Origin: Geminicoccaceae bacterium
Lineage (GTDB): Bacteria; Pseudomonadota; Alphaproteobacteria; Geminicoccales; Geminicoccaceae
Length of the DNA stretch: 48,065 nt
Direction: 5' to 3'
NCBI GenBank assembly: GCA_023512415.1
Contig: JAILZQ010000003.1
Span: forward strand, 1 to 48,065
Position 1 is the first letter of the stretch; every line of letters begins with the position of its first letter. Position numbers and translations under genes: made by a program. Of this stretch, positions 5,022 to 41,526 are shown one piece after another. The notes beneath the pieces are model-generated. The model was given only the letters and a program-made list of their open reading frames with translations, was not told the DNA's origin and searched no databases.

Positions 5022-5040
5022 GGGTTTCTCCTCGTCGCCG

Positions 5041-5070
5041 TCTATAGAAAATGACACACACTTGTGACAA
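5041..5070 (-). promoter_or_regulatory. Candidate crtDC promoter with an imperfect CrtJ/PpsR box in the spacer
   Basis: Read on the minus strand, TTGTCA (5070-5065) and TATAGA (5046-5041) form a sigma-70-like pair with an 18-bp spacer, just upstream of crtD. Within the spacer, 5052-5069 reads TGAC-N10-GACA, one mismatch from the CrtJ/PpsR consensus TGTC-N10-GACA. A TTGACA at 5077-5082 on the plus strand could be a -35 for crtE, but no good -10 follows it. Promoter and operator are inferred from the sequence only. Confidence 0.5.
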
Positions 5071-5110
5071 GTTGGGTTGACAGATCGGCCGGGACCGAAG
5101 GGAGGCGCCG

Positions 5111-5980: not shown

Positions 5981-5996
5981 GCGCCGATCGAGGTCC

Positions 5997-7136: not shown

Positions 7137-7176
7137 TGTAAATGTAGCTTGACACGCTGAGGAGTCAGGCTAGCTT
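7137..7176 (+). promoter_or_regulatory. bchC promoter with CrtJ/PpsR operator
   Basis: A perfect TGT-N12-ACA box lies at 7137-7154, the consensus for the redox/light repressor CrtJ/PpsR. Its right half overlaps the -35 hexamer TTGACA (7149-7154). A -10-like TAGCTT follows at 7171-7176 with a 16-bp spacer. Repression by CrtJ at bchC is well established in Rhodobacter capsulatus, where two boxes are present; here I see only one clear box. Confidence 0.75.
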
Positions 7177-7231
7177 GACGCTGGCGACGGAGGCAACCGT
7201 CGCCGGCAGCAGTCGGGAGGCGGCCGGTCGG

Positions 7232-8179
7232 ATGGATACGCTCGCCGTGGTGCTCGAGGCGCCCGAGCGTCTCGTGCTCGACCGGGTCGAACTCGCCCCG
7301 CCCAAGGCCGAGGACGTCCTGGTCGCGGTCGAGTGGAGCGGGATCAGCGCCGGTACCGAACGACTCCTCTGGAGCGGCCGCATGCCCCCGTTCCCGGGCA
7401 TGGGCTATCCGCTGGTCCCCGGCTACGAGACCGTGGGCACGATCCTCACGGCCGGCCCGGCCGCCGGCCGCCGGCCGGGTGAGCGGGTCTTCGTTCCCGG
7501 CGCGCGCTGCTTCCCCGAGCTCAAGGCCCTCTTCGGTGGCGCCGCGGCCCGCCTCGTCGTGCCCGGCAGTCGGGTGGTCCCGATCGACGGCGCGCTCGAT
7601 CCGCCCGAGACCGCGGTCCTCCTGGCGCTCGCCGCGACCGCCCGGCACGTGCTCGCCGGTGCGGCCGACGGCGTTCTGCCCGAGCTGATCGTCGGCCACG
7701 GCGTGCTCGGCCGGCTGCTGGCTCGCCTGGTCCTGGCGGAAGGCGGGGCGCCCGTGGTCTGGGAGCGCGACCCACGCCGGGCCGACGGCGCGCGCGGCTA
7801 TGCCGTCCTCGATCCCGAGGCCGATCCGCGGCGCGACTATCGCCGCATCGTCGACGTGAGCGGCGATCCGAGCATCCTCGACCGGCTCGTGGCCCGGCTC
7901 GCCCCGGGCGGCGAGATCGTCCTCGCCGGGTTCTACGCCGCCCCACTCGCCTTCGCCTTCGCCCCGGCCTTCCTCAAGGAGGCGCGGATCCGGATCGCCG
8001 CGGAGTGGCGGCCGGACGACCTCGAGGCGGTGGCAGCACTGGTCCGTGCGGGCAGGCTCGCCCTCGACGGGCTCGTCACCCATCGCCGTCCGGCCGCGGC
8101 CGCCGAAGCGGCCTATCGCGAGGCCTTCGGCGATCCTGCCTGCCTCAAGATGGTACTCGATTGGAGGGGATGCGCATGA
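7232..8179 (+). CDS. bchC: BchC, 3-hydroxyethyl-bacteriochlorophyllide dehydrogenase
   Basis: BchC oxidises the 3-hydroxyethyl group of 3-hydroxyethyl bacteriochlorophyllide a to acetyl, giving bacteriochlorophyllide a. It is a 315-aa member of the medium-chain dehydrogenase family: a GroES-like part ([15 protein letters not shown], then [11 protein letters not shown]) followed by a nucleotide-binding half ([17 protein letters not shown]). I start it at the ATG at 7232 ([14 protein letters not shown]), which matches the family length; in-frame codons further upstream overlap the promoter. The stop overlaps the bchX start (ATGA at 8176-8179). Confidence 0.94.
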
Positions 8180-9186
8180 GCCTCGACCTCGGCGCCGCCC
8201 ATGCGCTCGCCGCCCGCGACGCGGCCTTGCGCGCCGAAGCCGCGCACGAGCCCGATCCGGTCCCGACCGGTCCGGTGAAGAAGCCGACCCAGATCGTCGC
8301 GATCTACGGCAAGGGCGGGATCGGCAAGAGCTTCACCCTCGCCAATCTGAGCTACATGCTGGCCCAGCAGGGCAAGCGTGTCCTCTTGATCGGCTGCGAT
8401 CCCAAGAGCGACACGACCTCGCTGTTGTTCGCCGGTCGCAGCTGCCCCACGATCATCGAGACGAGCGCGCGCAAAAAGGCGGCCGGCGAGCAGGTCCGGA
8501 TCGGCGACGTCTGCTTCAGGCGCGACGGTGTGTTCGCGATGGAGCTGGGTGGCCCCGAGGTCGGCCGCGGCTGCGGCGGCCGGGGCATCATCCACGGCTT
8601 CGAGCTCCTCGAGAAGCTCGGCTTCCACGACTGGGGCTTCGACTTCGTCCTCTTGGATTTCCTGGGCGACGTGGTGTGCGGCGGTTTCGGCCTGCCGATC
8701 GCCCGCGACCTCTGCCAGAAGGTGATCGTGGTCGGCTCGAACGATCTGCAGTCGCTCTACGTCGCCAACAATGTCTGCTCGGCGGTCGAATATTTCCGCA
8801 CCCTCGGCGGCAACGTCGGCGTGGCCGGCCTGGTCGTGAACAAGGACGACGGCACCGGCGAGGCGCAGGCCTTCGCCCGGGCGGTCGGCATCCCGGTGCT
8901 GGCCGCGATCCCCGCCGACGAGGACATCCGCCGCAAGAGCGCGGCCTACGAAATCGTCGCCCGGCCGGGTGGCCGTTGGGCGCCGCTCTTCGCCGAGCTC
9001 GCCCGGGCCGTGGCCGAAGCGCCGCCGCTGCGGCCGAAGCCGCTCGGCCACGAGCAGCTCCTCGATCTCTTCAAGAGCGAGGCCGTGGGCCGCGACGTGG
9101 TCCTCGAGCCCGCGAGCGAGGCCGACATGTGCGGCGGTGTGGTGCCCGAGCGCCGCTCACTCGAGGTGGTCTACGACGATGTCTGA
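8176..9186 (+). CDS. bchX: Chlorophyllide a reductase iron protein BchX
   Basis: BchX is the nitrogenase-iron-protein-like ATPase that passes electrons to BchYZ for reduction of ring B of chlorophyllide a. The P-loop is [15 protein letters not shown], followed by CDPKSDTT. The [4Fe-4S]-ligand cysteines are in GRGCGGRGI and [11 protein letters not shown], bridging a homodimer. Of two nearby ATGs, the one at 8176 has GGAGGGG at proper spacing, while 8170 has none. The gene is 336 aa. It overlaps bchC by 4 nt and bchY by 8 nt, so translation of the three is coupled. Confidence 0.97.
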
Positions 9187-10768
9187 GCGGGACGGCCTCG
9201 CGCCCGAGCCGGCGGGCGAGCTGGTCTACGACGAGGTGGCGCCGGTCACCGTGCTCGGCAGCACGGCCGAGGCGGAGGCCGCACCGACCGGCGGCGAGGG
9301 GCTCGGCTGCCACGCCGGTGCCGAGCAGCTGCGGGCCCGGGCGATCGCCGCCGGCAACCGCGAGCTCCTGGAGCGCTACGCCCGCGACTATCCGAAGGGC
9401 CCGCACGACAAGCCGCAGAGCATGTGCCCGGCCTTCGGCAGCCTGCGGGTGGGCCTGCGGATGCGGCGGACCGCGACCGTCCTCACCGGCTCGGCCTGCT
9501 GCGTCTACGGCCTGACCTTCACCTCCCACTTCTACGGGGCTCGCCGGACCGTCGGCTACGTGCCGTTCAATTCCGAAACACTCGTCACCGGCAAGCTGTT
9601 CGAGGACGTCCGCGCGGCGGTCTTCGAGCTCGCCGACCCCGAACGCTACGACGCGATCGTGGTCACCAATCTCTGCGTGCCCACGGCCTCGGGCGTGCCG
9701 CTCCAGCTCCTGCCGAAGACGATCGAGGGGGTGCGGATCATCGGCATCGACGTGCCGGGCTTCGGCGTGCCGACCCATGCCGAGGCCAAGGACGTGTTGG
9801 CCGGGGCGATGCTCCGCTACGCCCGGCTCGAGGCCGAGCAGGGTCCGGTCGCGGCACCTTCGGGTCCGCGCGCCGAGCGGCCGACCGTGACCTTGCTCGG
9901 TGAGATGTTCCCGGCCGATCCGGTGACGATCGGCGAGCTGCTCGAGCCCTTGGGTCTGGCCTGCGGCCCGGTCGTGCCGACCCGCGAATGGCGTGAACTC
10001 TACGCCGCCCTCGCGAGCCCGGTGGTGGCGGCGATCCACCCCTTCTACACCGCCGCGATCCGCGAGTTCGAGACCGCCGGCCGGACGATCCTGGGCTCGG
10101 CTCCGGTCGGGGTCGAGGGCACGGCGGCTTGGCTCGAGGCGGTGGGCCGGGCCTTCGATCTGCCGGCGTCCCGGATCGACGCCGCCAAGGCCGCGGCGTT
10201 GCCGAAAATCCGCGCCGCCCTCGAGGCCGCCCCGATCCGCGGCCGGATCACGGTCTCGGGCTACGAGGGATCCGAGCTCCTGGTCGCCCGGCTCCTGGTC
10301 GAGAGCGGGGCGGAGGTTCCGTACGTCGGCACCGCCTGCCCGCGCACGCCCTGGTCGGATCCCGACCGCGAATGGCTCGAGGCCAAGGGCGCGATGGTCC
10401 GCTACCGCGCCTCGCTCGAGGACGATCTCGCGGCGGTCGAGGCGGTGAAGCCCGATCTCGCGATCGGCACCACGCCCGTGGTCCAGAAGGCCAAGGAACG
10501 GGCGATCCCCGCCCTCTACTTCACCAACCTGATCTCCGCCCGGCCGCTCATGGGGGCCGCGGGCGCCGGCTCGCTCGCCCGGGTGGTCGAGGGGGCGATC
10601 GCCCGGCGCGAGCGGTTCCTCGGGATGCGGGCTTTCTTCGAGGGCGTCGGAGCGGGCGAGACGGCCGGCATCTGGCCCGACAAGCCCGAGCCGAAGCCGG
10701 TCCGCAAAGGGGCGATCCGGGTGGTCGATCGTCGGCGCGAGGCTGCCCTGGAGCCGAGCCCGTGCTGA
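9179..10768 (+). CDS. bchY: Chlorophyllide a reductase subunit BchY
   Basis: BchY, with BchZ, forms the NifDK-like catalytic component of chlorophyllide a reductase (COR). Cysteines expected to hold the shared [4Fe-4S] cluster are in [20 protein letters not shown] and GSACCVYGL. Further family marks are [18 protein letters not shown] and, near the C-terminus, [11 protein letters not shown]. The ATG at 9179 overlaps the bchX stop by 8 nt; the product is 529 aa, in the normal range. The C-terminal tail is basic ([16 protein letters not shown]). Confidence 0.96.
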
Positions 10769-12207
10769 TCCTCGACCACGACCGGGCCGGCGGTTACTGG
10801 GGCGCGGTCTACGTCTTCACCGCGATCAAGGGGCTGCAGGTCGTCATCGACGGGCCGGTCGGCTGCGAGAACCTGCCGGTGACCTCGGTGCTCCATTACA
10901 CCGACGCCCTGCCGCCGCACGAATTGCCGATCGTGGTGACCGGGCTCGGCGAGGAGGAGCTCGGCAAGCTCGGCACCGAGTCGGCGATGAAACGGGCCCG
11001 CTCGGTGCTCGACCCGGATCGGCCGGCCGTGGCGGTCACGGGCTCGATCGCCGAGATGATCGGCGGCGGGCTCACCGTGGAGGGCGCCGATCTGCGCCGC
11101 TTCCTGCCGCGGACGATCGACGAGGATCAATGGCAAGCGGCCGATCGGGCGCTCTATTGGCTGTGGAGCGAGTTCGGCCCGAAGGGCGGCAAGGTCCGCG
11201 CGCGCGAGCGGGCGCCGGGCGAGAAGCCCAAGGTCAACATCGTCGGGGCGGCCTACGGCACCTTCAACCTGCCCTCGGATCTGGCCGAGATCCGGCGGCT
11301 GGTCGAGGGCATCGGCGCCGAGGTCAACTTGGTCTTCCCGCTCGGGAGCCATCTGCGGGAGGTGCCCGAGCTCGCCCGGGCGGACGTCAACATCTGTCTC
11401 TATCGCGAGTTCGGCCGCACCTTGTGCGAGGCGCTCGGCCGGCCGTGGCTCGTGGCCCCCTTCGGTCTGTTCGGCACGACCAAGTTCCTGCGCGCGCTCG
11501 GCGCGCTCCTGGGGCTCGACCCCGAGCCGTTCATCGAGCGCGAGCGACACACGACCTTGAAGCCTCTGTGGGATCTGTGGCGGTCGGTCACCCAGGATTT
11601 CTTCGCGACCGCCACGTTCGGGATCGTCGCCGGGGCGACCTATGCCCGCGGGGTGCGCCGCTATCTCGAGGACGAGCTCGGCTTGCCCTGCAGCTTCGCG
11701 GTGCAGCGGATCCCGGGCGGCAAGACCGACAACGCGGCGATCCGCGAGCTCGTCCAGAAGAAGACACCGCTCGTCCTGTTCGGCAGCTGGAACGAGCGGA
11801 TGTACCTGGCCGAGATCGGCGGCCGGGCGATCTGGATCCCGGCCTCCTTCCCGGGACCGATCGTCCGCCGGCACACCGGCACGCCGTTCATGGGCTATGC
11901 CGGGGCCACCTATCTCCTGCAGGAGGTGTGCAACGCGCTGTTCGACGCGCTGTTCCACATCCTCCCGCTCGGCAGCGCGCTCGATCGGGTCGAGCCCACT
12001 CCGTCCCGCCTCGCCGCACCCCTGCCCTGGGACGAGGCGGCACGCCGCGCGCTCGATGCGCTGGTCGAGCGCGAGCCGATCTTGACCCGGATCTCGGCCG
12101 CCAAGCGGCTCCGCGATGCCGCCGAGCAGCGGGCGCGCGCCGCGGGTGAGACGCGGGTCACGGTCGCGCGCGTGCGGGCGGACGACCGGCTGGAGCCGGT
12201 CGCATGA
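10762..12207 (+). CDS. bchZ: Chlorophyllide a reductase subunit BchZ
   Basis: BchZ is the second NifDK-like subunit of COR, 481 aa. Key stretches are [20 protein letters not shown], with the single cluster-ligand Cys, then [14 protein letters not shown] and [20 protein letters not shown], and near the end [15 protein letters not shown]. It begins at a GTG at 10762, seven nt inside the end of bchY, and there is no better ATG. The C-terminal 50 residues are the light-independent reductase-type helical region. It is the last bch gene before the puf genes; a stable hairpin lies just after its stop. Confidence 0.96.
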
Positions 12208-13131: not shown

Positions 13132-13956
13132 ATGGCCATGCTCAGCTTCGAGCGCAAATATCGGGTCCGCGGTGGTACCCTGATCGGCGGTGACCTGTTC
13201 GATTTCTGGGTCGGACCGTTCTACGTCGGCTTCTTCGGTGTCACGACGATCTTCTTCACCGTCCTGGGCACGGGCCTGATCGTCTACGGTGCGGCGATCG
13301 GCCCGACCTGGAACATCTGGCAGATCAACATCGCACCGCCGGACATCTCCTACGGGCTCGCCCTGGCGCCGCTCAAAGAAGGGGGCTTGTGGCAGCTGAT
13401 CACGATCTGCGCGATCGGCGCCTTCGTCTCCTGGGCGCTGCGCGAGGTCGAGATCTGTCGTAAGCTCGGGATCGGCTACCACGTGCCGATCGCCTTCGGC
13501 TTCGCGATCTTCGCCTATGTCACGCTGGTCGTGATCCGACCGTTGCTGATGGGGGCCTGGGGGCACGGGTTCCCCTACGGCATCTTCAGCCATCTCGATT
13601 GGGTGTCGAACACGGGATACCAGTACCTCCATTTCCACTACAATCCGGCACACATGCTCGCCGTGACCTTCTTCTTCACGACGACGCTGGCGTTGGCGCT
13701 GCACGGCTCGCTCGTGCTGTCGGCTGCCAACCCGCCCGAAGGCGAGCCGGTCAAGGCCGCCGACCACGAGAACACCTTCTTCCGCGACTTCATCGGCTAC
13801 TCGATCGGCACGCTCGGCATCCATCGGCTCGGTCTGTTCCTCGCCCTCAACGCCGGGTTCTGGAGTGCCGTGTGCATCGTCATCAGCGGCCCGTTCTGGA
13901 CCCGCGGCTGGCCGGAATGGTGGGGCTGGTGGCTCGATCTGCCGATCTGGCGCTGA
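13132..13956 (+). CDS. pufL: Photosynthetic reaction centre L subunit
   Basis: PufL is one of the two five-helix subunits that hold the special pair, accessory BChl, bacteriopheophytin and quinones. The 274-aa product begins [16 protein letters not shown], as L chains do. The helix C-D region contains [20 protein letters not shown] with the His ligands of the special pair and accessory BChl. [20 protein letters not shown] and the later [10 protein letters not shown] give further chromophore and iron ligands. AGGAGG lies about eight nt upstream of the ATG at 13132. pufM follows after 16 bp. Confidence 0.97.
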
Positions 13957-13972
13957 AGGTCGGGAGACCGCC

Positions 13973-14944
13973 ATGGCCGAGTATCAGAGCCTCTTCACCC
14001 AAGTGCAGGTCCGCACGCCGGCGCATGCGGGTGTGCCCCTGCCCCGAGGGACCTGGATCCGCCAGGGAACCCCCCGCTTCTCCTACCTTTTGGGGAAGAT
14101 CGGCGACGCACAGATCGGGCCCATCTATCTCGGCTGGCTCGGGGTGGCCTCGATCGTCTCGGGGATCGTCGCGATCGAGATCATCGGCCTCAACATGTGG
14201 GCCTCGGTCAACTGGGATCCGGTCCAGTTCGTCCGCCAGTTCTTCTGGCTCGCCCTCGAACCACCACCGCCGAAGTACGGGCTCTCGATCCCGCCCTTGA
14301 ACGAGGGCGGCTGGTGGCTGATGGCCGGCTTCTTCTTGACCCTTTCGATCCTCCTCTGGTGGGTGCGGACCTATCGCCGGGCCCGGGCGCTCGGCATGGG
14401 CACGCACGTCGCCTGGGCGTTCGCCGCGGCGATCTGGCTCTATCTCGTGCTGGGCTTCATCCGGCCGATCTTGATGGGGAGCTGGTCCGAGGCGGTGCCG
14501 TTCGGCATCTTCCCGCATCTCGATTGGACCGCGGCCTTCTCGATCCGCTACGGCAACCTGTTCTACAACCCCTTCCACTGCCTCTCGATCGTCTTCCTCT
14601 ACGGCTCGGTGCTGCTGTTCGCCATGCACGGCGCGACGATCCTCGCCGTGAGCCGGTTCGGCGGCGACCGCGAGGTCGAGCAGATCCTCGACCGCGGCAC
14701 CGCGGCCGAGCGCGCGGCCCTTTTCTGGCGGTGGACCATGGGCTTCAACGCGACGATGGAGTCGATCCACCGTTGGGCCTGGTGGTTCGCGGTCCTCACC
14801 CCGCTCACCGGCGGCATCGGGATCCTGCTGACCGGGACGGTGGTCGACAATTGGTACCTCTGGGCGGTCAAGCACGGTGTGGCCCCGGCCTATCCCGAGG
14901 TCTTCCCACCCGTGGTCGATCCCGCCGCCGCGGCAGCGAGGTGA
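13973..14944 (+). CDS. pufM: Photosynthetic reaction centre M subunit
   Basis: PufM is the partner of PufL, 323 aa. The N-terminal [11 protein letters not shown] is typical, the central segment [18 protein letters not shown] and [14 protein letters not shown] carry chromophore ligands, and [18 protein letters not shown] contains the Glu and His that bind the non-heme iron near QA. The start at 13973 has GGGAG seven nt upstream. The extended C-terminus after [11 protein letters not shown] is the part expected to contact the cytochrome subunit, consistent with pufC just downstream. Confidence 0.97.
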
Positions 14945-14947
14945 GCC

Positions 14948-15997
14948 ATGCAGCCTCCGAGTGGATACCGGACACCTCCGGTCCTGATCGGCCTCGGCGT
15001 GGGCGCGGCCGTGATCGCGGTGGGGCTCGCCCTCACCTACGAGGCGCCGCCGATCCAGACCAGCCAGACCGGGTTCCGGGGCCTCGCCATGGCCGACGTC
15101 CAGAACCCGCGCCGGGTGGCCGACCGGGTCGTCGCCAACCGGGTGCCGGAGCCGCAACCCGCCGTACAGCCGGCCGGCCAGAAGGCCGCGGAGCTCTACG
15201 AGAACGTCCCGGTCCTGGGCGACCTCGACGTCGAAGAGTTCAACCGGCTGATGGCGGCGATCACCGAATGGGTCTCGCCCGAGCAAGGCTGCGGCTATTG
15301 CCACGCCGAGGGCGAGCCGTTGAGCTCGGACAAGCTCTACACCAAGGTCGTCGCGCGGAAGATGTTGCAGATGGTCGGCACCATCAACGCCGACTGGCAG
15401 GCGCATGTCGGAGCGACCGGCGTCACCTGCTGGACCTGCCACCGCGGCCAGCCGGTGCCCGTGGGGACCTGGTTCACCGAGCCGAACCCGATGCAGGCGG
15501 GGGGCGGCGCACAGGGCCCGACCGGGCAGAACCGGCCCGCCCCGCTCGCCACCTTGGCCTCGCTGCCGGCGGATCCCCTGACCCCGCTCTTGTCGGGTCC
15601 GGAGGCACCGATCCGGGTGATCGACAACCGGGTGCTGCCGCTGCGCGGCCAGCAGGGCGCCTCGATCCAGGCGACCGAGCTCACCTATTCGCTCATGCAC
15701 TATGTGAGCGATTCGTTGGGCGTGAACTGCACCTATTGCCACAACAGCCGCTCGTTCTTCTCCTGGGACCAGAGCACGCCGCAACGGACCACGGCGTGGC
15801 ACGGCATCCGGATGGTACGGTCGCTCAATCAGAATTATCTGCTGCCCCTCGAGGGCGTCTTCCCGAAGGAACGGCTCGGGCCGCTCGGCGATGTGCCGAA
15901 GCTCGCTTGTGCGACCTGCCATCAAGGAGCCGCCAAGCCGCTCCTGGGTGTCTCGATGTTGAAGGATTATCCGGAGCTCGCCGCGATCAAGCGCTGA
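14948..15997 (+). CDS. pufC: Tetraheme cytochrome subunit PufC
   Basis: PufC is a periplasmic cytochrome docked on the reaction centre that re-reduces the special pair. Four heme c motifs are present: CGYCH, CWTCH, CTYCH and CATCH. An N-terminal hydrophobic segment (about residues 11-32, LIGLGVGAAVIAVGLALTY) is followed directly by the mature-like TSQTGFRGLAM. No lipobox Cys is visible, so it is probably held by an uncleaved anchor instead of a lipid. GAGGTGAG at the end of pufM serves as ribosome-binding site. The stop overlaps the 3' end of bchJ on the other strand by 11 bp. Confidence 0.97.
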   Translation: MQPPSGYRTPPVLIGLGVGAAVIAVGLALTYEAPPIQTSQTGFRGLAMADVQNPRRVADRVVANRVPEPQPAVQPAGQKAAELYENVPVLGDLDVEEFNRLMAAITEWVSPEQGCGYCHAEGEPLSSDKLYTKVVARKMLQMVGTINADWQAHVGATGVTCWTCHRGQPVPVGTWFTEPNPMQAGGGAQGPTGQNRPAPLATLASLPADPLTPLLSGPEAPIRVIDNRVLPLRGQQGASIQATELTYSLMHYVSDSLGVNCTYCHNSRSFFSWDQSTPQRTTAWHGIRMVRSLNQNYLLPLEGVFPKERLGPLGDVPKLACATCHQGAAKPLLGVSMLKDYPELAAIKR

Positions 15998-16598
15998 GCC
16001 GCAGGATCCGGAGCTCGCAACGGCGCGAGCCGGCCGCCCGGCAGACGGCCGGCTCGACGCGGCTTCGGGGGTCGACGAGATCGCGCAGCAGGGCTTCGAA
16101 GGTCGCGGCGTAATAGACGCAGCCGAGACCGTGCCGGCCGGAAGCCGGACAGAGCGGGCAGGGCTCGATCGACAGACGCGGTGGCGAGCCCCGGAGGACC
16201 GCGAAGCGGCCGCCGCCCGTGAAGGTCCAGGCGTGGCGACCGATCGCGGCGAGCAAGAGCGGCTGCCGCAGCCGGGTCGGCAGACGAGCGAGAAGCCGTC
16301 GGAAGAGACCCGGGATCCGGTGGCCGAGGAGATAGGCGGCGGTCCGCCGGCCGGCCTCGGCGGCGAGGCTCCGCGCGGTCGCGGGGTCGACCACCTCCTG
16401 CAGCGCGGTATGAAGGGCCCGGACCTCGGCGACCGGGACCAGGCCCCCGACCGGCCTGGCCAGTCGCTCGGTGAGCCCGGCCCGATGCAACACGGCCGCG
16501 GCCGTCCCCTCCCCTTCCCGTTCGCGCAGGGCGGCCACGAGCTGGAGGATCGCGTTCGGGCCGATCCGGCCGGCGCGGTCCGAGCCGGCGGCGCTCAC
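15987..16598 (-). CDS. bchJ: BchJ, 4-vinyl reductase (V4R) domain protein
   Basis: A 203-aa V4R-family protein. BchJ was proposed to assist 8-vinyl reduction or porphyrin handling in bacteriochlorophyll synthesis; it is not the main 8-vinyl reductase in all species. The sequence shows an N-terminal helical part ([17 protein letters not shown]) and the C-terminal V4R core with [24 protein letters not shown] and [14 protein letters not shown]. It starts at a GTG at 16598 that overlaps the bchE stop (GTGA). It converges with pufC, overlapping by 11 bp. Confidence 0.88.
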
Positions 16599-18220
16599 GC
16601 GGCGGGCGGGCCCGGCTCGGCGGCCTCCGGCAACTGCTCGGCGCCGCCGCCACAGGCCATCACGCGCCGGGGCGCCGCCTCGGCGCGCGCTTTCTTCTCG
16701 AGCCGCCGCTCGCCGACCGCTTTCCAATCGCCGATCCGGGCGCGCTCGAGGGTGCGGGCGCGGTCGAAGCCGAAATCGACCTTGCCCTTGGATTGCGGGC
16801 CCCAATAGCCGACCCGGCCGAGATCGTAGAACTGGCGCTTGAACCCGGCGCGTAAATAGGCCTCGAGGCAGCCGCGCAGATAGCGGCGACGCACCGGATC
16901 GCGCTGCCACGGATAGGAGAAGAAGGCTTTGCGCATGTAGAAGCGACGGTAATTGTGCATGACGCGGTCGAGCAGCTCGGCACGATCCATGGCGTCCGGC
17001 TTCACGATCGGCGTCACGAAATTGTACTTTTCGAAATCGAAGATCTCGACCTTGTCCTCGAGCTCGTGGAACAAGTCGGTGAACGGCCAGGGCGTGTACA
17101 TCGACCAGTTGGCCATGTCGGGGTCCCAGTCCCGGCACATGGCGTAAGTCTCCTCGAGCGTCTCGGTGGTCTCGTTCTCGAGGCCGACGATGAACTGCGC
17201 CTCGGTGACGATGCCGTGCCGGCGGAGGAGCTGGATGGCCTTCTTGTTCTGGGCGATCGTCGTCTCTTTGCGGAAGCGGTCGAGCTTGAGCTGAGCCGCG
17301 GCCTCGGTGCCGAGCGAGACGTGGACCAGGCCGGCCTTGCGGTAGAGCGGCAAGAGCGCCTCGTCGCGCAGGATGTCGGTGACCCGGGTGTTGATGCCCC
17401 AGAGCACGCCGAGGTCGCGGCGAACCAACTCCTCGCAGAAGGCGATGAACTTCTTGCGGTGGATGGTCGGCTCCTCGTCGGCGAGGATGAAAAAGCCGAC
17501 CTGGTGCTCGCGGACCAGCGTCTCGATCTCGTCGACGACCTTGATCGGGTCGCGGACACGATAGTCGCGCCAGAACTTCCACTGCGAGCAGAAGCTGCAG
17601 GTGAACGGGCAGCCGCGGGCGAAGTTCGGCACCGCGACCCGGGTCTTGAGCGGGATGTAGAGGTGCTTCGACCAGTCGAGGATGCTCCAGTCGGCGACGA
17701 TCGTGTCGACGTCCGCGATCGGCGGGGCCGCCGGCGTGGCCACGACCTGCCCGTCGATCCGGGTGGCGATCCCGCGGACCGACCGGCGATCGCGAGCCCA
17801 GCGGCCGTCCTCGAGGGCGCGGACGAGGTCGAGGAGCACCGCCTCCCCTTCCCCACGGACGACGACGTCGATCCAGGGCGCTTCGCCGAGCACCTGGCGA
17901 TAGAGGAAGGTCCCGTGCACGCCACCCAGCACGGTGAGCGCGTGCGGGCATTCCTCGCGGGCGAGCTCCAGCACCCGCTCGGCCTTGTAGATCGCCGGGG
18001 TGATCGCGGTCGTGCCGACGAGGTCGGGGGCGTAAGCGCGGATCCGTTCCCGAAGCGCATCGTCGTCGAGGTGATCGGTCATCGCATCGATGAACGCGAT
18101 CTCGGTGTAGCCCGCCGCCTTCAAGTAGCCCGTGAGGTACGCGACCCAGGAAGGGGGCCAGTTGCCGGCGATCTCCGCGCCACCGGAATGGTAGTTCGGA
18201 TGGACGAAGAGGATCCGCAT
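16595..18220 (-). CDS. bchE: BchE, oxygen-independent Mg-protoporphyrin IX monomethyl ester cyclase
   Basis: BchE is a cobalamin-dependent radical SAM enzyme that builds ring E of bacteriochlorophyll using water as the oxygen source. The N-terminal half is a B12-binding-like domain (residues 1-150, [25 protein letters not shown]). The radical SAM cluster motif is CPFTCSFC (Cys204, 208, 211). The C-terminal region ([18 protein letters not shown]) is typical of the family. Length 541 aa is near normal. It forms an operon with bchJ. A perfect FNR box lies 66-79 bp upstream of the start, matching expression under low oxygen. The aerobic cyclase gene acsF is not in this window. Confidence 0.95.
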
Positions 18221-18257
18221 GGAAAGCCTCCCGGTTTGTCCTCGACGGCCCTCGGGA

Positions 18258-18299
18258 AGACTAGAAGAGATCGGAGGAAGAGGACTTGATCTCGATCAA
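18258..18299 (-). promoter_or_regulatory. FNR/FnrL box and candidate class II promoter of bchE
   Basis: TTGATCTCGATCAA at 18286-18299 is a perfect match to the FNR consensus TTGAT-N4-ATCAA. On the minus strand a -10-like TAGTCT lies at 18263-18258. This puts the box centre (18292.5) about 41.5 bp before a transcription start near 18251, the classic position of an FNR-activated class II promoter, with about 30 nt of leader before the bchE ATG. Confidence 0.85.
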
Positions 18300-18811
18300 A
18301 TCCCATCGAAAAAGCCGGCGCCGGATGAGGGTTCGGGGTCGGGGCGAGACCGTCCGGGGATCGATACGATCGACCCTGTCGGTCGCCCACCGCACGCGGC
18401 GCGTCGAGGCCAGGGCAAGGGACCGCGAAGCACGGCCGGGTCCCCGCCGATCCGGGATCTCGGGCCGGTGCATCGCGGGAAACACTCCCCGGGAGGCTGC
18501 CCGCGGTCGGGGAGTCCCCACGGGCCGAGGGCAAGCCCCCTCCCCTCGAGCGGCCGGACGCGCCCTGTGAAGAGCCGGGCCGTCGTCGTCCGGAGGGCGA
18601 TCGGCCGGTGATCCGCCTTCGGCTCCGCCGCCGGCTCGGGCGGCGGGAGCCACCGAGCTCGTCGCGACCGGAGGGGAAGGGGGACCGGCGCGAGACTCGA
18701 GGCGCCTCGTCGGGCGATCGAGGCGGCGAGGCTCGTCTCGGCGCGGCCGGGCGCGCGCCGGGGGCTCACCGTCGAGGTCGTCCGTTCCGGGCGGAGGCGG
18801 GCGCCGAGGGT

Positions 18812-18827
18812 CATCAGTGCACCGATA
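18812..18827. repeat. 16-bp palindromic site, copy 1
   Basis: CATCAGTGCACCGATA, a variant of the palindrome TATCAGTGCACTGATA, followed by G as in all four copies. Candidate centromere (parS-like) site for the downstream ParAB pair. Confidence 0.6.
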
Positions 18828-19562
18828 GCGAGGATCGGGGCTCGTCTCGAGCAGGGGGCGGTTCTCGAGGCCTCGGGCATCGCCGTTCGAACGGTCGCCG
18901 CCCTGCCCCCTTCTCTCCGCGCGGACGATCGCGTCGGTCTCCTCGACCTCGTGACGGGAGGGTGGTTCATTCCGTGGGCCCGAGGGACCGGCGGGGAGGC
19001 TCCGGGGGCGACGGGTGCCGTCGGCTCCCGATCGGGGCTTGCCGGGGTGTGGTGCCCCACCTCGGCGGGCCGCCCTCACCCACCGGGGCCGGCTCGGGCG
19101 TCGCGATCGGCGAGGAGCGGCCCTCGGCGTGAAGGGCTCGCGGAAGCGTGCGCGTCTTCGGCAAGGCGGGCCCTCGCGCGAAGGGGGTAGAGGTGACGGG
19201 CGACGGGGGCGCCCCCGCTTCGCTGTCGGTCATCCGAGGCTCGGGGGTGGGCGCGAGGAGAAAGGCTCCTTGGGAGAGCACTCGGCTGTCGCCGCGGCGG
19301 AAGGAGGAAGAGGTCGCGTCGCTTGCTGCTGGGCCCGGACCCGGTTCGTGCCGGGTGGGGGATTCGCGTGATCGGGTCGATGAATGGAAGCCGGCGAACG
19401 GCTCGCCGCTCCGTCCTTCCGCCGCCGATGGCGACCATGCAGGCCCGAGAAGGCGGGGGCCTTGCGGGTGAGGGGCCGAGGCGATGCCGGTCCCTGACCC
19501 GGGTCGCTGGCGCGGGGCGGTGCAGTCGATCGAGGGAAGGGGTCGGGCCGAGGGCAGGGGGT

Positions 19563-19578
19563 TATCAGTGCACTGATA
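19563..19578. repeat. 16-bp palindromic site, copy 2 (perfect palindrome)
   Basis: TATCAGTGCACTGATA, perfectly self-complementary over 16 bp. It lies 53 bp before copy 3, so the two may be bound cooperatively. Confidence 0.7.
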
Positions 19579-19631
19579 GGGGAGCCGCGACGGCCCTCCG
19601 AGCCGGACGATCGGTCGTCCCGGATCCGGAG

Positions 19632-19647
19632 CATCGGTGCACCGATA
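19632..19647. repeat. 16-bp palindromic site, copy 3
   Basis: CATCGGTGCACCGATA. The inner 14 bp form a perfect palindrome in which both arms changed together (A to G on the left, T to C on the right relative to copy 2). Such matched changes argue for binding by a symmetric dimer. Confidence 0.65.
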
Positions 19648-20455
19648 GGGTCCGGACCGGCGAACGGGGCGGTATCGTGAGCGATCGATCGAGTCCCCGC
19701 TGCCGGCCCGCGTCGCTCCACGAAGAGAAGAGAAAGGAGTGGGCGACGGCGCTCGAAGGGCGGGGGCGAAGGCCATGCGAAATCTTCCCTCCTGGCAGAC
19801 CATGCGCGGCGATTCCGCCCGCGCCCGGGATCACGAAGGCTGCGGAGGCCGAAGCGCGTTGAACAAGGGAGGGGCGATGGGAATTGCGAATGTCGCGCGG
19901 GCAGCCGGCCCGGACGTTCGACCCGACACGGCCGATCGCAAAGGGTCGGGAGTGAGCACGAGGAGGCGGACTCGCAAAGAGGCGGAGGGGGCGCGCTGGG
20001 GCGAGCCCCCGCATCGGGGAAGCTCGAGCGAAACGGTCGCGGCGAGCGAAGCGAGTGGTGGTGACGCGGCAGGGGCTGAATGGCGTCTCCGAGCGGGGAA
20101 GAGAACGGAAACCCGAGCGCCCCCGATCCGCACGCAAGCACGCAGACGGAGCGTGGAGACTGGCTCTCGCGGAGACGGTCGCTTCTCTTTAAGAGATGGG
20201 GGTGCAGGGGAGGGTCAGGCTCGAGGAGAGGAAGCGCGGCCACGGTCGGTGTCCCGAGCACGGGCGGTCGGGGGCCGGGACGCGGGGACCACCACCGGCC
20301 GGGAGGAACGCCCCGAGCTGGCACAGGGACAGACCGCGAGGCGGTGCCAGCTCGGCTTTCACGGCGCTCCCGAGCCGTCCGCCGGCACCGAGCGCGGACC
20401 GTCCAGTCGATCCGGGGGGCGATCGGCGTCCGGAGGGCGGAAGGGTCGGACGGGT

Positions 20456-20471
20456 TATCAATGCACTGATA
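20456..20471. repeat. 16-bp palindromic site, copy 4
   Basis: TATCAATGCACTGATA, one base from the perfect palindrome of copy 2. It is the copy nearest to parA, 214 bp upstream of its start. Confidence 0.65.
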
Positions 20472-20584
20472 GCCGCGAGGAGGCGACGGGACCACGGTAA
20501 CCGAAGCCGGCCCCACGAGGAAGATGCGGACGGGAGGCGAGCGGAAGCCGTGAGCAGCGTCGAGGACGTGAGGATCGTGCCATC

Positions 20585-20650
20585 TCGGCGACGATCGCCG
20601 AAAGTTCGCGGCAACAGCGCTGATCGACGCTGGCGAGGGTGGATCAGCGC
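20585..20650. promoter_or_regulatory. Two inverted repeats upstream of parA, candidate operator
   Basis: First repeat: TCGGCGA-CGA-TCGCCGA at 20585-20601. Second repeat: GCGCTGATC (20617-20625) and GATCAGCGC (20642-20650), perfect 9-bp arms separated by 16 bp. Both lie within 100 bp before parA. RepABC-type and P1-type ParA proteins with an N-terminal HTH repress their own operon, so these are reasonable operator candidates. No clear -35/-10 pair was found. Confidence 0.45.
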
Positions 20651-20685
20651 GCGTAGACATCGCGCGGAGAACGAGGCGCGAGGCC

Positions 20686-21864
20686 ATGGAGGACATCGCG
20701 GTCCGCTTCGAACGCTTCGCCGAGCTGTGCCGGGCGGTCCAGCGCAAGGCGGTCGAGCTCGAGAACCATCCGGAAAAGCGCAAACGGTTGCGCCGCTTCG
20801 GCCCCGGCGAGGTGGCGTCGGTGCTCGGGATCTCACCGGGCCATCTGCGCAACCTCGTGCGCGAGCCCGGCTTCCCCGCAGGTGAAACGCAGGCGGGCGG
20901 AAGGCGCAGCTTCTCGATCGAGGAGATCCACCGGGCGCGTACCTGGCTGCACCGGACCACGGGTCATCCCCGCTACGCGCCGGGACGCCGCGCGGAGGTG
21001 GGCGAGCGGCTGCAGATCGTCACCTTCGTGAACTTCAAGGGCGGCAGCGGGAAGACGACGACCGCCGTGCACTTCGCCCAATATTTGGCGCTCCGCGGTT
21101 ATCGCGTCCTGCTCGTCGACCTCGACCCGCAAGCCTCGGCCACCGCCTTGTTCGGTCTCGATCCGGACACGGAAATCGGCGAGAGCGGTACCTTCGCGAG
21201 CTGGCTTTCCGGAACGCGGCAGGTGGGCGAGCTCGTCCGCCCGACCTATTGGGCCGGCCTCGACCTCCTGCCCGCGAGCATCGCCCTGCAGCACGCCGAG
21301 TACGAGCTGGTCGGTCGGCTGCTCGAGCGGCGCGACTTCGCGTTCTACGGCCAGCTCGGCGAACTCTTGGGAGCGATCGGCGCGCGCTACGATGTCGTGG
21401 TGTGCGACTGCCGGCCGGATGTCGGCATGCTCACCTTGAACGCGCTCTGGGCGGCCACCGGACTGGTCGTACCGATTCCTCCGTCGATGCTCGACTTCGC
21501 GAGCTCGGGCGAGTTCTTCCGCTTCCTGGCCGGGGTCGCACGCGATTTCCGCACCACACTCCGGTCGGATGCGCTCGACTACGACTTCGTGCGGATCGTC
21601 ACCACGCGCTTCAAGGCCGCCGACCGCAACCAGGCCGAGATCGTGCGTTGGAAGCGGGCCCTCTTCCAGGAAGCCGTGCTGGGCGAGGCGATGCTCGACA
21701 CGGCGCTGATCGATGCCGCCGGAATCCTCAAAGAGACGCTCTACGAGTACGAGCCGAGCGGCAACCGCCGCACCTACGAGCGCGGACTCGAGGCGATGGA
21801 ACGGGTCAATCGAGCGCTCGAGCAGGAGATCCTGCGGGCGTGGGGACGGCCGACCGAAAGCTGA
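20686..21864 (+). CDS. parA: ParA/RepA partition ATPase, RepABC type with N-terminal HTH
   Basis: A 392-aa type Ia partition ATPase. Residues about 37-90 form a MerR-like helix-turn-helix (FGPGEVASVLGISPGHLRNL, then GGRRSFSIEEIHRAR), the arrangement of RepA in repABC plasmids and of P1 ParA, used for operon autoregulation. The deviant Walker A is NFKGGSGKTTT (about 116-126), followed by LLVDLDPQASATALFGLD and VVVCDCRPDVGMLTLNAL. The C-terminal part continues normally. parB follows after 16 nt. It acts on the nucleoid to separate sister replicons with ParB bound to a centromere; the four palindromes upstream are the likely centromere. No repC initiator follows the pair. Confidence 0.92.
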   Translation: MEDIAVRFERFAELCRAVQRKAVELENHPEKRKRLRRFGPGEVASVLGISPGHLRNLVREPGFPAGETQAGGRRSFSIEEIHRARTWLHRTTGHPRYAPGRRAEVGERLQIVTFVNFKGGSGKTTTAVHFAQYLALRGYRVLLVDLDPQASATALFGLDPDTEIGESGTFASWLSGTRQVGELVRPTYWAGLDLLPASIALQHAEYELVGRLLERRDFAFYGQLGELLGAIGARYDVVVCDCRPDVGMLTLNALWAATGLVVPIPPSMLDFASSGEFFRFLAGVARDFRTTLRSDALDYDFVRIVTTRFKAADRNQAEIVRWKRALFQEAVLGEAMLDTALIDAAGILKETLYEYEPSGNRRTYERGLEAMERVNRALEQEILRAWGRPTES

Positions 21865-21880
21865 GGGGAAGGGGACCGCG

Positions 21881-22915
21881 ATGCGGCAGACGGACAAGCG
21901 GGCTGCGCTCGCCGCCTCGATCGAAAGCCTGCAACAGGATGTCGGGGGAACGACGGCCCCGCCACCGCGGGGAATCGTCGGTCGGGCGCTCGAGGTCCAC
22001 AAGGAGGGGCTCCTCGAGCGGCTGCGTGCCCTCGAGGAGGCACGCGCCGAGCCGCTACCCGCGGCCGACCGGCTGGTCCGCCTCGATCCGGCGCTGATCG
22101 ACGAGCCGCTGCCGGCCGACCGCGACCCGCGGGCCTTCGCCGATGCGGCCTTCGAGGCCCTCAAGGCGAGCATCGCCGAACGCGGCCAGGACGTGCCGGT
22201 CACCGTGCGACCGCGGGGCGAGCGGTTCGAACTCGCCGCCGGCCGTCGCCGGCTCGCCGCCTGTCGGGCACTCGGTCGGCCGGTCCTCGCGCGGGTCCTG
22301 CCGCTCGACGACGAGGCGATGCTGGCCCTCCAATACCGAGAGAATGTCGAGCGCAGCGACGTCACCCCTTACGAGCGCGGCCGCTGGCTCGCGACCCTCG
22401 CCGAACGGGGTTGGAGCACGACCCGGCTCGCGGCGCTGACCGGTCTCTCCCAGCCCTCGATCGTCGATTATCTGCGCCTCGGCCGGTTGCCCGGAGCGCT
22501 CGTCGACCGGCTCGGCGATCCGCGCGTTCTCACTTTGGCCGACGGCCGCCGCTTGCAAGCGGCACTCGATGCCGATCCCGGAGCCTTGGATCGGATGGTC
22601 GAGGCCCTCGAGGCGGAGGTCGGTCGATCGCCCCGCGAGCGGCTCGGGCGGGCGCTCGAGGCGGCGCGTCGGCGGCCGACGCCGAGCCGACCCGCGCTGC
22701 GCGGCCGGATCGTCCTCGACCCCGAGGGCCACAAGCTCGTCACCATCACCCGCAGCGGCAATCAGTGGCTCTATCGCTGGGCACCCGAAGTGGACGAGGC
22801 GGCGATCGCTTGGGTCGCCGACCGGCTGGCCGATTTGCTCGCCGAATGGGTCCGAGAGCAGGCCTATCGGCGCACCGACAAGTCGGCGCCGGCGACCGGT
22901 TCGCCGAGCACGTAG
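21881..22915 (+). CDS. parB: ParB/RepB partition protein
   Basis: A 344-aa ParB-family DNA-binding (and presumably CTP-binding) protein. The N-terminal acidic/helical region contacts ParA. The ParB N domain includes ELAAGRRRLAACRALG and ALQYRENVERSDVTPYERGR; the HTH is in TTRLAALTGLSQPSIVDYLRLG. GGGGAAGGGG lies upstream of the ATG at 21881. Homologues in repABC operons are followed by repC, but here the next gene is guaD on the opposite strand, whose 3' end overlaps parB by 52 bp. Confidence 0.9.
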   Translation: MRQTDKRAALAASIESLQQDVGGTTAPPPRGIVGRALEVHKEGLLERLRALEEARAEPLPAADRLVRLDPALIDEPLPADRDPRAFADAAFEALKASIAERGQDVPVTVRPRGERFELAAGRRRLAACRALGRPVLARVLPLDDEAMLALQYRENVERSDVTPYERGRWLATLAERGWSTTRLAALTGLSQPSIVDYLRLGRLPGALVDRLGDPRVLTLADGRRLQAALDADPGALDRMVEALEAEVGRSPRERLGRALEAARRRPTPSRPALRGRIVLDPEGHKLVTITRSGNQWLYRWAPEVDEAAIAWVADRLADLLAEWVREQAYRRTDKSAPATGSPST

Positions 22916-24183
22916 ACGCAGCGGACCGCGCGGTCGTCGCCGAGCCGGAGCAGCACGGCGAGCTCGTCCTCGAGCCCGTGGGCGCGTTCGAGTCGATGCG
23001 CCATGGCCGGCGTCGCGGCCGGATCGAGCACGACGAGGTCGGCCTCGAACCCGGGCTCGAGGCGGCCGATCCGATCGGCCAGGCCGAGTGCTGCGGCGTT
23101 GTCGATCGTCATCAGACGAAAAGCGTCGACCGGTGACCAGCCTCGGCCCAGGAGCCGCGCGACGTCGCAAAGCGTCGCGGCGGTCCGCAGCATCGACCAG
23201 GAGCTGCCGCCGCCCACGTCGGTCCCGAGGGCGAGACGGACCGGCCGGCGCCGATCGGCGAGCGCGCCGAGGTCGACGAGGCCGGAGCCCAAGAACAGGT
23301 TCGAGGTGGGGCAGAGGACGGCGACCGAGCCGGTCTCGGCGAGCCGGGCCTGCTCCTCTTCACGAAGATGGACGCAATGGCCCAAGAGGGTCCGCGGCCC
23401 CAACAGGCCGAACCGATCGTAAACCGCGGTATAGTGGGGAGCCCAGGGGAAGCGTGCGCGGACCGCCTCGATCTCGCCCGGGCTCTCGGCCAAATGGGTC
23501 TGCAGCCAACAGCTCGGATGGGCGGCCAGGAGTTCGCCCGCAGCCGCGAGCTGGGCCTCGCTCGAGGTCAAGGCGAAGCGCGGGCTGATCACGTAGCCCA
23601 GGCGGTCGACGCCGTGCCAGCGGGCGATGAGCTCGGCGCTCTCCCGCACCCCCTCTTCGACCGTGTCGCGGAGCCCCTCGGGTCCCCGGTCCATCATCAC
23701 TTTGCCGGCCAGGAGCCGCAGCCGCCGGACCCGCGCCTCGGTCAGGACCGCCTCAATCGAGGCGGCGTGCACCGAGCCGTAGACCACGGCCGTGGTCGTG
23801 CCCTGGCGCAAGAGCTCGTCGAGGAAGAAGCTCGCCATGCGGGCGGCGTGCGCCGGGTCCCCGAAGGCCCGCTCGGCCGGGAAGGTGTGGCGTTCGAGCC
23901 AGTCGAGCAGGTCCTCGGCCGGCGAGGCGATCACCTGGCTCTGCGGAAAATGGATGTGGGCGTCGATCAGCCCGGGCAGGACGAGGCGGTCGCCGTGCGC
24001 GTCGACCGGCGTGTCCGGTGGCAGGGTCGGAAGGAGCTCGGCGGCCGGCCCCAGCCGGGCGATCCGCCCGTCCTCGACGAGGACCAGATGATCGGCGCGG
24101 AGCCGGTGCCCACCCTCGGGCGGGAAATCGAGGAGCCGTCCGCGGATCGCGCGGCGCCGGGGCGCCGGACCCGTCCCGCTCAT
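22864..24183 (-). CDS. guaD: Guanine deaminase
   Basis: A 439-aa amidohydrolase that converts guanine to xanthine and ammonia, feeding xanthine to the Xdh enzyme encoded nearby. Metal-binding and active-site motifs are DAHIHFPQ, QTHLAESP, LLGHCVHL and GTDVGGGSSWSML. The C-terminal beta-sandwich segment GRLEPGFEADLVVLDP is present. The ATG at 24183 overlaps the puuD stop (ATGA), so the two are coupled. The 3' end overlaps parB on the other strand by 52 bp. Confidence 0.92.
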   Translation of the reverse strand: MSGTGPAPRRRAIRGRLLDFPPEGGHRLRADHLVLVEDGRIARLGPAAELLPTLPPDTPVDAHGDRLVLPGLIDAHIHFPQSQVIASPAEDLLDWLERHTFPAERAFGDPAHAARMASFFLDELLRQGTTTAVVYGSVHAASIEAVLTEARVRRLRLLAGKVMMDRGPEGLRDTVEEGVRESAELIARWHGVDRLGYVISPRFALTSSEAQLAAAGELLAAHPSCWLQTHLAESPGEIEAVRARFPWAPHYTAVYDRFGLLGPRTLLGHCVHLREEEQARLAETGSVAVLCPTSNLFLGSGLVDLGALADRRRPVRLALGTDVGGGSSWSMLRTAATLCDVARLLGRGWSPVDAFRLMTIDNAAALGLADRIGRLEPGFEADLVVLDPAATPAMAHRLERAHGLEDELAVLLRLGDDRAVRCVYVLGEPVAGADLSVRR

Positions 24184-25376
24184 CCGCCCGGCGCCCCGGC
24201 CTCGAGCCAGCGGGCGAGCCGCGCCCGCTCCTCGGCCTCGAGCCCGGAGAGATTGCCCGGCGGCATGGCCCGGCTGTGGACCGATTGCCGCGCGATCAGC
24301 GGGGCCCAGCGGCGGATCGCCTCGGGCGTGTCGAGCCGAACACCCTTGGGCGCGGCCGCGAGCCCGGGCCAGACCGGGTGCTCGGCGTGGCACATGGCGC
24401 AGCGGCTCGCGACGATCGCCTCGATCTCGGCGAAGGCCGGTGGCGGCGAGGCGGTCGCAGCGCCGGTCGGCGCGGCCGGCGGGCGGGCGAGCCCGAGGGC
24501 CGCGGCAGCGGCCGCGGCCGCGACCCCCCAACTCCACCAGGGCGAGGGACGACCTGCGTGCCGTTCGTTGAAGAAATGCCGAACGGCGAAGCCGATCAGC
24601 AAGACGAGCGCCAGGATCAGCCAGTTCCAGCGATTGTCGAACACCAGCGGGTAGTGGCCGGCGATCATCGTGAAGACGACCGGCAGGGTAAGATAGTTGT
24701 TGTGCAGCGAGCGTTGCTTGGCGCGGCGGCCGAGCTCCGGGTCGGGGGTCCGGCCGACGAGCAGGGCGGCTACCGCCTTGCGCTGGTTCGGGATGATGAC
24801 GTGGGCGACCGAGGCGACCATGCAGGTGCCGAGAAGGGCTCCGGTTTGGATCACGGCACCACGGCCGGAGAAGATCCGGGTCATCGCGAAGGCGAAAAGC
24901 AGGAGGAGCGCGCTGCCGACGATCGCGAGCAGCCGGTCGTCACGGCCCAGGGGCGAGCGGCAGAGGATCTCGTAGACCAAGTAGCCCAACAAGATCGAGC
25001 TCACGCCCACGACCACGGCGCGCCACGGCTCCAACGGTCGAACCGCCGGATCGATCAGGTAGAGCTCGGGCTTCGCGTAGTAGAGGGCGACGAGCAGGGC
25101 GAAGCCGGACAGCCAGGTCGTGTAGGCTTCCCATTTGAACCAGGTGAGCTTCTCGGGAAGCTCGGGCGGGGCGATCGTGTATTTCCGCATCCGATAGAAG
25201 CCGCCACCGTGCACCTGCCAAGCCTCGCCGGCGACACCCGTGGGCAGGCCGGGCCGTTTCTCGAGGGAGGCGTCCAGGTGGATGAAGTAGAAGGAGCTGC
25301 CGATCCAGGCGATCGCGGCGATCACGTGCAACCAGCGCAAGGCCAGCTCGATCCCATCGGCGAAGGCCGCGTCCAT
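24180..25376 (-). CDS. puuD: Membrane urate oxidase (urate hydroxylase) with cytochrome c domain, PuuD
   Basis: PuuD oxidises urate to 5-hydroxyisourate and, unlike soluble uricase, passes electrons to the respiratory chain through a fused cytochrome c. The 398-aa product has an N-terminal integral membrane domain with several hydrophobic helices (LRWLHVIAAIAWIGSSFYFI, then KLTWFKWEAYTTWLSG). Conserved IIPNQRK and HNNYLTLPVVFTMIAGHYP follow. A C-terminal heme c domain has CAMCH and a distal MPPGN. It is first in a two-gene unit with guaD. Its product is the substrate of the UraH encoded at 33918-34298. Confidence 0.92.
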   Translation of the reverse strand: MDAAFADGIELALRWLHVIAAIAWIGSSFYFIHLDASLEKRPGLPTGVAGEAWQVHGGGFYRMRKYTIAPPELPEKLTWFKWEAYTTWLSGFALLVALYYAKPELYLIDPAVRPLEPWRAVVVGVSSILLGYLVYEILCRSPLGRDDRLLAIVGSALLLLFAFAMTRIFSGRGAVIQTGALLGTCMVASVAHVIIPNQRKAVAALLVGRTPDPELGRRAKQRSLHNNYLTLPVVFTMIAGHYPLVFDNRWNWLILALVLLIGFAVRHFFNERHAGRPSPWWSWGVAAAAAAAALGLARPPAAPTGAATASPPPAFAEIEAIVASRCAMCHAEHPVWPGLAAAPKGVRLDTPEAIRRWAPLIARQSVHSRAMPPGNLSGLEAEERARLARWLEAGAPGG

Positions 25377-37783: not shown

Positions 37784-37892
37784 GCGGGGATCCCGTGAGG
37801 CGGAGCGCGCGGCCGGGCGAGCTAGGCGGCCGCGAGGGCGAGCGTCAAGCGGCCGGCTTGCCCGGTCGAGATGCCGGCCGGATGCTGGACCC

Positions 37893-41491: not shown

Positions 41492-41526
41492 GGTGGTCCC
41501 GTCCGTCGGGAGGGCGTGGATCGCCC

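Follow-up and report, generated by a model that had tools for sequence, protein, structure and literature searches.

How does a partition locus of plasmid type come to stand beside photosynthesis genes in an alphaproteobacterium, and are these genes then carried on a replicon of their own? The question is raised by a parA-parB pair in a stretch of 48,065 nucleotides from an uncultured Geminicoccaceae bacterium (GenBank assembly GCA_023512415.1, contig JAILZQ010000003.1), hereafter the window, which is the whole of contig C205 of its draft genome (G000; 3.58 Mb, 263 contigs, 95% complete). An earlier note on this DNA had described the pair as an orphan repAB without repC and had left a plasmid, a chromid and a chromosome with a captured partition locus side by side. 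Our answer, to which we assign a probability of roughly 0.87, is that the window makes up about one third of a predicted circular replicon of about 138.5 kilobases (kb) with a RepA_C initiator and a ParABS partition system, and that this replicon carries an apparently complete photosynthesis cluster. In what follows G001-G005 are congeners, G001 and G003 being the two sister species, and C97, C64, C91 and similar labels without a genome prefix are contigs of G000.

The partition locus and its candidate centromere

20686-21864, plus strand: parA, type Ia-like partition ATPase with an N-terminal extension (AAA_31, 3e-33; TIGR03453, 345.5 bits)
21881-22915, plus strand: parB, centromere-binding protein of 344 amino acids (ParB_N, 4e-6; parB_part, 87.9 bits, above cut-off)
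18221-20685: region without a convincing gene, holding four palindromes (codon-position G+C)
18812-18827: candidate parS palindrome CATCAGTGCACCGATA (palindrome search)
19563-19578: candidate parS palindrome TATCAGTGCACTGATA, perfect (palindrome search)
19632-19647: candidate parS palindrome CATCGGTGCACCGATA (palindrome search)
20456-20471: candidate parS palindrome TATCAATGCACTGATA (palindrome search)

The pair lies where the earlier note had placed it, between photosynthesis and purine genes, with bchE ending at 18220 upstream and guaD, a guanine deaminase gene, directly after it; parB and guaD are convergent and share about 50 bases at their 3' ends (22864-22915). The alignment of ParA to the NCBIfam family partition_RepA (TIGR03453) covers residues 24-388 and thus takes in the N-terminal region, at a score just under the cut-off (345.5 against 348.45 bits), and together with the AAA_31 and parB_part matches this bears out the view of a plasmid-style partition locus. 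The likeliest start of parB is the ATG at 21881, the longest open reading frame (ORF) beginning at 21713. Its product reaches 113.7 bits with partition_RepB (TIGR03454), far under the cut-off of 201.5, and PF07506, the domain of RepB, has no match in G000. A RepABC replicon is rejected on these grounds, both proteins being below the curated RepA and RepB cut-offs, and the name repAB therefore does not apply in its strict sense. The absence of repC that had been remarked upon held in the domain scans of part of the window ORFs, where no repC-like gene turned up (RepC was not searched for genome-wide), and the gene 3' of parB is guaD, not repC.

The closest named relatives of ParA include proteins of Marinimicrococcus, Arboricoccus and plasmid p1 of Geminicoccaceae bacterium SCSIO 64248, with amino acid identities of 79% to G003 and 63% to p1, the corresponding values for ParB being 65% to G001 and 48% to p1. 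When ParB was used as query against 60 genomes including G000, homologues at E below 1e-80 were found in G001, G003, G015, G008 and G018 besides G000 itself, and hence in two of the five congeners. G000 has a second ParB, of chromosomal type, on C64 (E 1e-53), which scores like the single ParB of the congeners; the locus in the window is accordingly not a sole partition locus of the genome residing on the main chromosome, the finding on which the earlier note would have given up its reading.

The 2.4 kb from bchE to parA hold two weak candidate ORFs only, both with a nearly flat codon-position G+C. The four near-identical palindromes of the TATCAGTGCACTGATA type found here compare with none in 100 shuffles of the window; furthermore, these four are the only matches to the pattern ATCRRTGCAYYGAT in the whole draft genome, in which a reversed control pattern has none. 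We consider it probable, as judged from sequence, that they are parS sites, in which case the locus has the make-up of a ParABS system, namely a ParA ATPase, a ParB and cognate candidate centromere repeats. Homologous parAB loci have sites of this kind as well: those within three mismatches of the window consensus were found once on contig C54 of G001 (G001:C54), twice on G003:C54, twice on G015:C53 and not at all on C97, and the two G003 copies have CGCG instead of TGCA. On p1 seven palindromes, TATCGATGCATCGATA or near variants, lie 3' of parB, against at most one in 40 shuffles. A search for palindrome families without a preset motif, made in 15 regions with 40 shuffles each, gave a largest family above all shuffles in seven regions, all with a TGCA centre: two overlapping window regions, p1, two Arboricoccus loci and two Pseudoroseomonas cervicalis loci. 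On p1 (CP122394.1, 2476-15781) a recombinase gene and a type I-C CRISPR-Cas operon come after the palindromes.

Joining the window to contig C97

47989-48065: end overlap of 77 bases, shared with the start of C97 (contig-end comparison)
1-1120, minus strand: N-terminal part of bchD, 373 amino acids to the contig end (alignment to BchD; the rest at the end of C97)

A comparison of 1100 directed contig-end pairs from sampled contigs gave only two overlaps of at least 12 bases, and both are exactly 77 bases long, as is expected of neighbours in an assembly graph. One joins the window to C97; the other, between C138 and C9, offers a further join of this kind within the draft. The order of genes that G000 shares with G001:C54 and G003:C54 carries on collinearly across both sides of the window-C97 joint, with about 2.6 kb of the window and about 1.8 kb of C97 unmatched there. 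At the two remaining ends the last ORF of C97 corresponds to the C-terminal portion of magnesium chelatase subunit D, whose N-terminal portion opens the window, and when both are compared with BchD of G007 the window half aligns up to base 6064 and the C97 half resumes at 6057, with two codons between the halves. Since the 77-base overlap and a single bchD split over the other two ends together account for all four ends, the two contigs are read as one circle of 138,478 bases, and on the strength of these contig ends we regard circularity as very likely. No exact overlap was found between the end of C97 and the start of the window, nor between the two ends of the window itself. GC skew of the joined circle gives no clear origin, and neither the window nor C97 holds a tRNA gene.

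The replication initiator

The RepA_C family (PF04796) has matches in 10 of 19 genomes and a single one in G000, at 58727-59179 of C97 within an ORF at 58361-59410 (E 4e-20). An initiator elsewhere on the same molecule, one of the checks that the earlier note had proposed, is thus found on the adjoining contig, and the description of the locus as an orphan falls away. This RepA shares 89-91% of its amino acids with RepA of G001 and of G003; in both of these genomes repA and parAB are on one contig, with repA directly before parA. In G015:C53 and G018:C5 a RepA_C gene likewise lies near parA, on the opposite strand; in Pseudoroseomonas cervicalis pL11-C, a circular plasmid record of 194,559 bases with a related parAB, RepA_C is about 170 bases from parB; and in the record of p1 parAB opens the record and RepA_C closes it.

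The RPA-type initiator PF10134 was considered for this replicon and discarded, having no match in G000-G008 and being present in 7 of 17 genomes. Where it does occur, it shares a contig of 129-323 kb with cysNC and an aroE of the same type as that of the window (G015:C106, G017:C5, G018:C12 and G022:C1), at a distance of about 1 kb from aroE in three of these four other genera, which suggests a second kind of replicon as the carrier of the three genes.

Sister replicons in two congeners

G001:C54 (66,001 bases, three runs of N) and G003:C54 (66,242 bases, no N) run collinearly for the greater part of their length, with 66-84% identity in aligned blocks, and are circularly permuted relative to each other. 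These contigs of about 66 kb look circular, since relatives span their ends: each spans the ends of the other, and C97 spans the ends of both. The photosynthesis cluster is absent from both, and repA and parA, which are about 310 bases apart in G003, are about 52 kb apart in G000, where the interval consists of about 49 kb of photosynthesis cluster and, for the rest, mainly of the palindrome region.

The photosynthesis cluster

1117-2208, minus strand: bchI, magnesium chelatase subunit (Mg_chelatase, 6e-17)
3480-5003, minus strand: phytoene-desaturase-like carotenoid gene, start approximate, name inferred (Amino_oxidase, 2e-22, in ORF 3480-7070)
5111-5980, plus strand: polyprenyl synthase, crtE-like (polyprenyl_synt, 3e-47)
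5541-7127, plus strand: O-methyltransferase, crtF-like (Methyltransf_2, 1e-41, residues 196-504 of the ORF)
7175-8179, plus strand: bchC (TIGR01202, 442 bits)
8005-9186, plus strand: bchX ORF (TIGR02016, 425 bits, match from residue 96)
8969-12207, plus strand: two nitrogenase-component-1 family genes, named bchY and bchZ by their order (Oxidored_nitro, 3e-52 and 8e-38)
13132-13956, plus strand: pufL (Photo_RC, 2e-100)
13865-14944, plus strand: pufM ORF with the gene start inside it (81-83% amino acid identity to PufM of G014 and G007)
14948-15997, plus strand: pufC (NF040706, 463 bits)
16595-18220, minus strand: bchE (TIGR02026, 794 bits)

On C97 the order after repA is a bphP-like gene (scoring under its family cut-off), ppsR, bchG, a second ppsR, bchF, bchN, bchB, bchH, bchL, bchM, puhA, acsF and bchO, after which bchD and bchI lead over into the crt, bch and puf genes of the window. 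Taken together the genes of the window and C97 supply the bacteriochlorophyll and reaction-centre set on one replicon, and the cluster of about 49 kb between repA and parS-parAB is apparently complete, pufA, pufB and the full carotenoid set having been left out of the profile tests. The suggestion that a photosynthesis cluster sits here on an extrachromosomal replicon thereby gains support from the circle as reconstructed. The bphP-like gene and the two ppsR genes stand at one end of the cluster (C97, 60110-69514), which suggests that light and redox control travels with it. Both cyclases are present on the replicon, the oxygen-independent bchE in the window and the oxygen-dependent acsF on C97.

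Of 15 other genomes two, G007 and G014, gave matches that cover puf and bch genes; the five congeners searched gave none. Two of the G014 contigs with such matches hold five and two tRNA genes, which suggests that the cluster of that genome is chromosomal. In a PufLM tree of nine rows the position of the window is not resolved, its nearest row being G007 at 84%. In G007 ppsR-bphP and pufC adjoin on one contig, whereas in G000 bphP is outermost on one side of the cluster and on the other side only bchE comes after pufC. A break close to bphP and pufC, as though the cluster had passed through a circular form, could account for this arrangement.

We infer that the replicon acquired the cluster, and not that its relatives lost it. 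A possible, if doubtful, history is that a pre-existing accessory replicon of about 66 kb, bearing tetrahydromethanopterin one-carbon genes, gained the whole photosynthesis cluster between its replication and its partition genes. If this is true, a single replicon could make a heterotroph of this family phototrophic, independently of the Rhodobacterales and with another replication system.

Proposed mechanism and alternative explanations

In the scheme that we propose, RepA encoded on C97 would start replication of the molecule, ParB would bind the TGCA-centred palindromes upstream of parA, and the ParA ATPase would separate the copies bound by ParB, each daughter cell thereby receiving one. 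With the cluster enclosed between repA and parS-parAB, keeping the replicon would amount to keeping phototrophy, and the remainder would be a backbone shared with the two sister species. What the sequence itself shows are the genes, the palindromes, the 77-base joint, the divided bchD and the synteny; autonomous replication, ParB binding and stable inheritance are predictions from these.

Several observations weigh against this account. The circle is put together from contig ends of a draft genome; no contig joining the end of C97 to the start of the window was found in the draft; the last 75 or so bases of C97 (about 25 codons) have no counterpart in BchD and are perhaps an assembly tip; and in the comparison with G014 the window half of bchD aligned only to residue 282, so the joint is not seen as sequence. 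As for the centromere, palindrome families did not rise above shuffles in 7 of the 15 regions tested (G003, G015, Skermanella, G012, Roseomonas marmotae, another Pseudoroseomonas and Beijerinckia), and one further region, that of G001, was unusable owing to N. Among the relatives, p1 is entered as a linear record, on which repA and parA would adjoin only if the molecule were a circle; the spanning of the sister contig ends leaves unaligned stretches of up to about 2.7 kb; one of the three N runs of G001:C54 lies inside parA; and one tRNA-like gene is called on the G001 replicon.

That a replicon with repA and parAB has become integrated, so that the cluster is chromosomal today, we regard as improbable. 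The fragmentation of the assembly into 263 contigs and the unexplained last bases of C97 would allow for it, and chromosomal reintegration of plasmid-borne clusters has been proposed in the Rhodobacteraceae (available text of PMC6052148). Against this, 138 kb of sequence show no joint to the chromosome, the ends match up in both pairs, repA, parAB and the palindromes look intact, and the replicon is of the same type as the circle-like contigs of about 66 kb in two sister species. Slightly less probable still is that window and C97 form a real plasmid binned into the wrong genome, perhaps one from another Geminicoccaceae in the sample. The binning of plasmids is generally unreliable, and the lack of puf and bch matches in the congeners would fit such an error, but the backbone matches replicons of two congeners and the G+C and tetranucleotide composition is like that of other G000 contigs. 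A degraded RepABC plasmid, or a repAB locus captured on the chromosome as the earlier note had allowed, is very improbable indeed. The near-threshold score of ParA with partition_RepA is in its favor, as are the plasmid RepA proteins, 40-44% identical to ParA, among the matches listed; the low score of ParB with partition_RepB and the missing PF07506 speak against it, the nearest relatives of parAB come with RepA_C, and a captured locus is made unlikely by the reconstructed circle. The earlier reading of the locus as a whole is thus partly supported, and the circular RepA_C/ParABS replicon is the explanation that we prefer.

Backbone genes and the status of the replicon

22864-24537, minus strand: guaD, guanine deaminase, match from residue 129 (NF006679, 536 bits; TIGR02967, 487.9 bits, above cut-off)
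36917-37894, minus strand: aroE, one of two in the genome (NF001312, 349 bits)
39617-42094, minus strand: cysNC, sulfate activation (APS_kinase, 7e-67; no other strong APS kinase match in G000)

The purine block comprises guaD, urate oxidase, ABC transporter and xanthine dehydrogenase genes and is followed by aroE, a HAD hydrolase gene, cysNC and glycosyltransferase genes. Nucleotide searches (blastn) gave no match in the sister replicons for the guaD, transporter and xanthine dehydrogenase genes; G003 has a match to a portion of the urate oxidase gene, and G001 one to the M20 peptidase region at 34.4-35.6 kb. C97 continues with genes for DNA ligase, folK, pabB- and pabA-type proteins, beta-RFAP synthase, fhcA, fhcD and an FwdB-like protein, of which beta-RFAP synthase, fhcA and fhcD each score above a cut-off and the FwdB-like gene below its own, and exopolysaccharide-type genes precede repA. 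The part common to the replicons of about 66 kb (C97, 1-40000) accordingly combines tetrahydromethanopterin one-carbon genes with genes of folate and p-aminobenzoate synthesis, and aroE may belong to this supply route.

The aroE gene does lie 14.0 kb from the end of parB, as had been stated, but the housekeeping argument built upon it fails, since a second Shikimate_dh_N gene on C91 scores like the sole one of the single-contig congener G005; aroE was therefore dropped as a housekeeping marker. The replicon may nonetheless hold the sole copy of some functions, cysNC being the only strong APS kinase in G000, G001 and G003. In G002, G004 and G005 there are only matches of 22-29 bits (family cut-off 21.1), and since G005 has only a match of 22 bits, cysNC is not needed throughout the genus, which can live without the replicon. 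Replication and partition genes (RepA_C, ParAB) are of plasmid type, and the composition is near that of the chromosome: G+C is 71.1% for window and C97 together against 71.4% in a non-random sample of 21 stretches (332 kb) of other, presumably chromosomal, G000 contigs taken from earlier matches, and tetranucleotide distances do not exceed the largest among the contigs so sampled. In short, we call the replicon a plasmid with chromid-like traits.

Comparison with known systems

The RepABC plasmids of Alphaproteobacteria likewise have a ParA with a RepA-type N-terminal region followed by a ParB, but differ from the present replicon, which has no RepB-family match, no RepC in the window scans, and both partition proteins below the curated cut-offs. 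Plasmid p1 is closer, with a homologous parA-parB, RepA_C at the other end of its record and TGCA-centred palindromes in an unannotated gap; it differs in its size of 342 kb, in its annotated conjugation and CRISPR genes, in the lack of a puf or bch match in that genome, and in having its palindromes 3' of parB rather than upstream of parA.

In PLSDB 11 plasmids match PufL, eight of them from Rhodobacterales and the others, all larger than the present replicon, from Methylobacterium aquaticum (1.57 Mb), Novosphingobium capsulatum (611 kb) and Candidatus Thiodictyon syntrophicum (485 kb); none of the 11 is among the best 40 of 42 ParB-related plasmid records. No report of a photosynthesis plasmid in Geminicoccaceae was found in the titles and abstracts of the searched, mostly non-subscription, literature. 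Such plasmids have been described before, for the most part from Rhodobacterales; for Geminicoccaceae none is reported within that literature.

The spread of phototrophy among Proteobacteria is debated, and carriage on plasmids is documented mainly in Rhodobacterales. The plasmids and chromids of that order (Roseobacter litoralis pRLO149_94, Sulfitobacter, Tateyamaria and others) likewise bear the cluster on an extrachromosomal replicon with host-like G+C, and two studies (PMC6739100, PMC6052148) describe their replication modules as of the DnaA-like I type or, in S. guttiformis, of the RepB-III type, most of them lying within the cluster. The predicted replicon thus has a similar architecture in another lineage, with the cluster joined to replication and partition genes; unlike the Rhodobacterales plasmids it combines RepA_C with a RepAB-like ParABS, belongs to Geminicoccaceae and has sister forms without the cluster, which allows a direct comparison between its presence and its absence.

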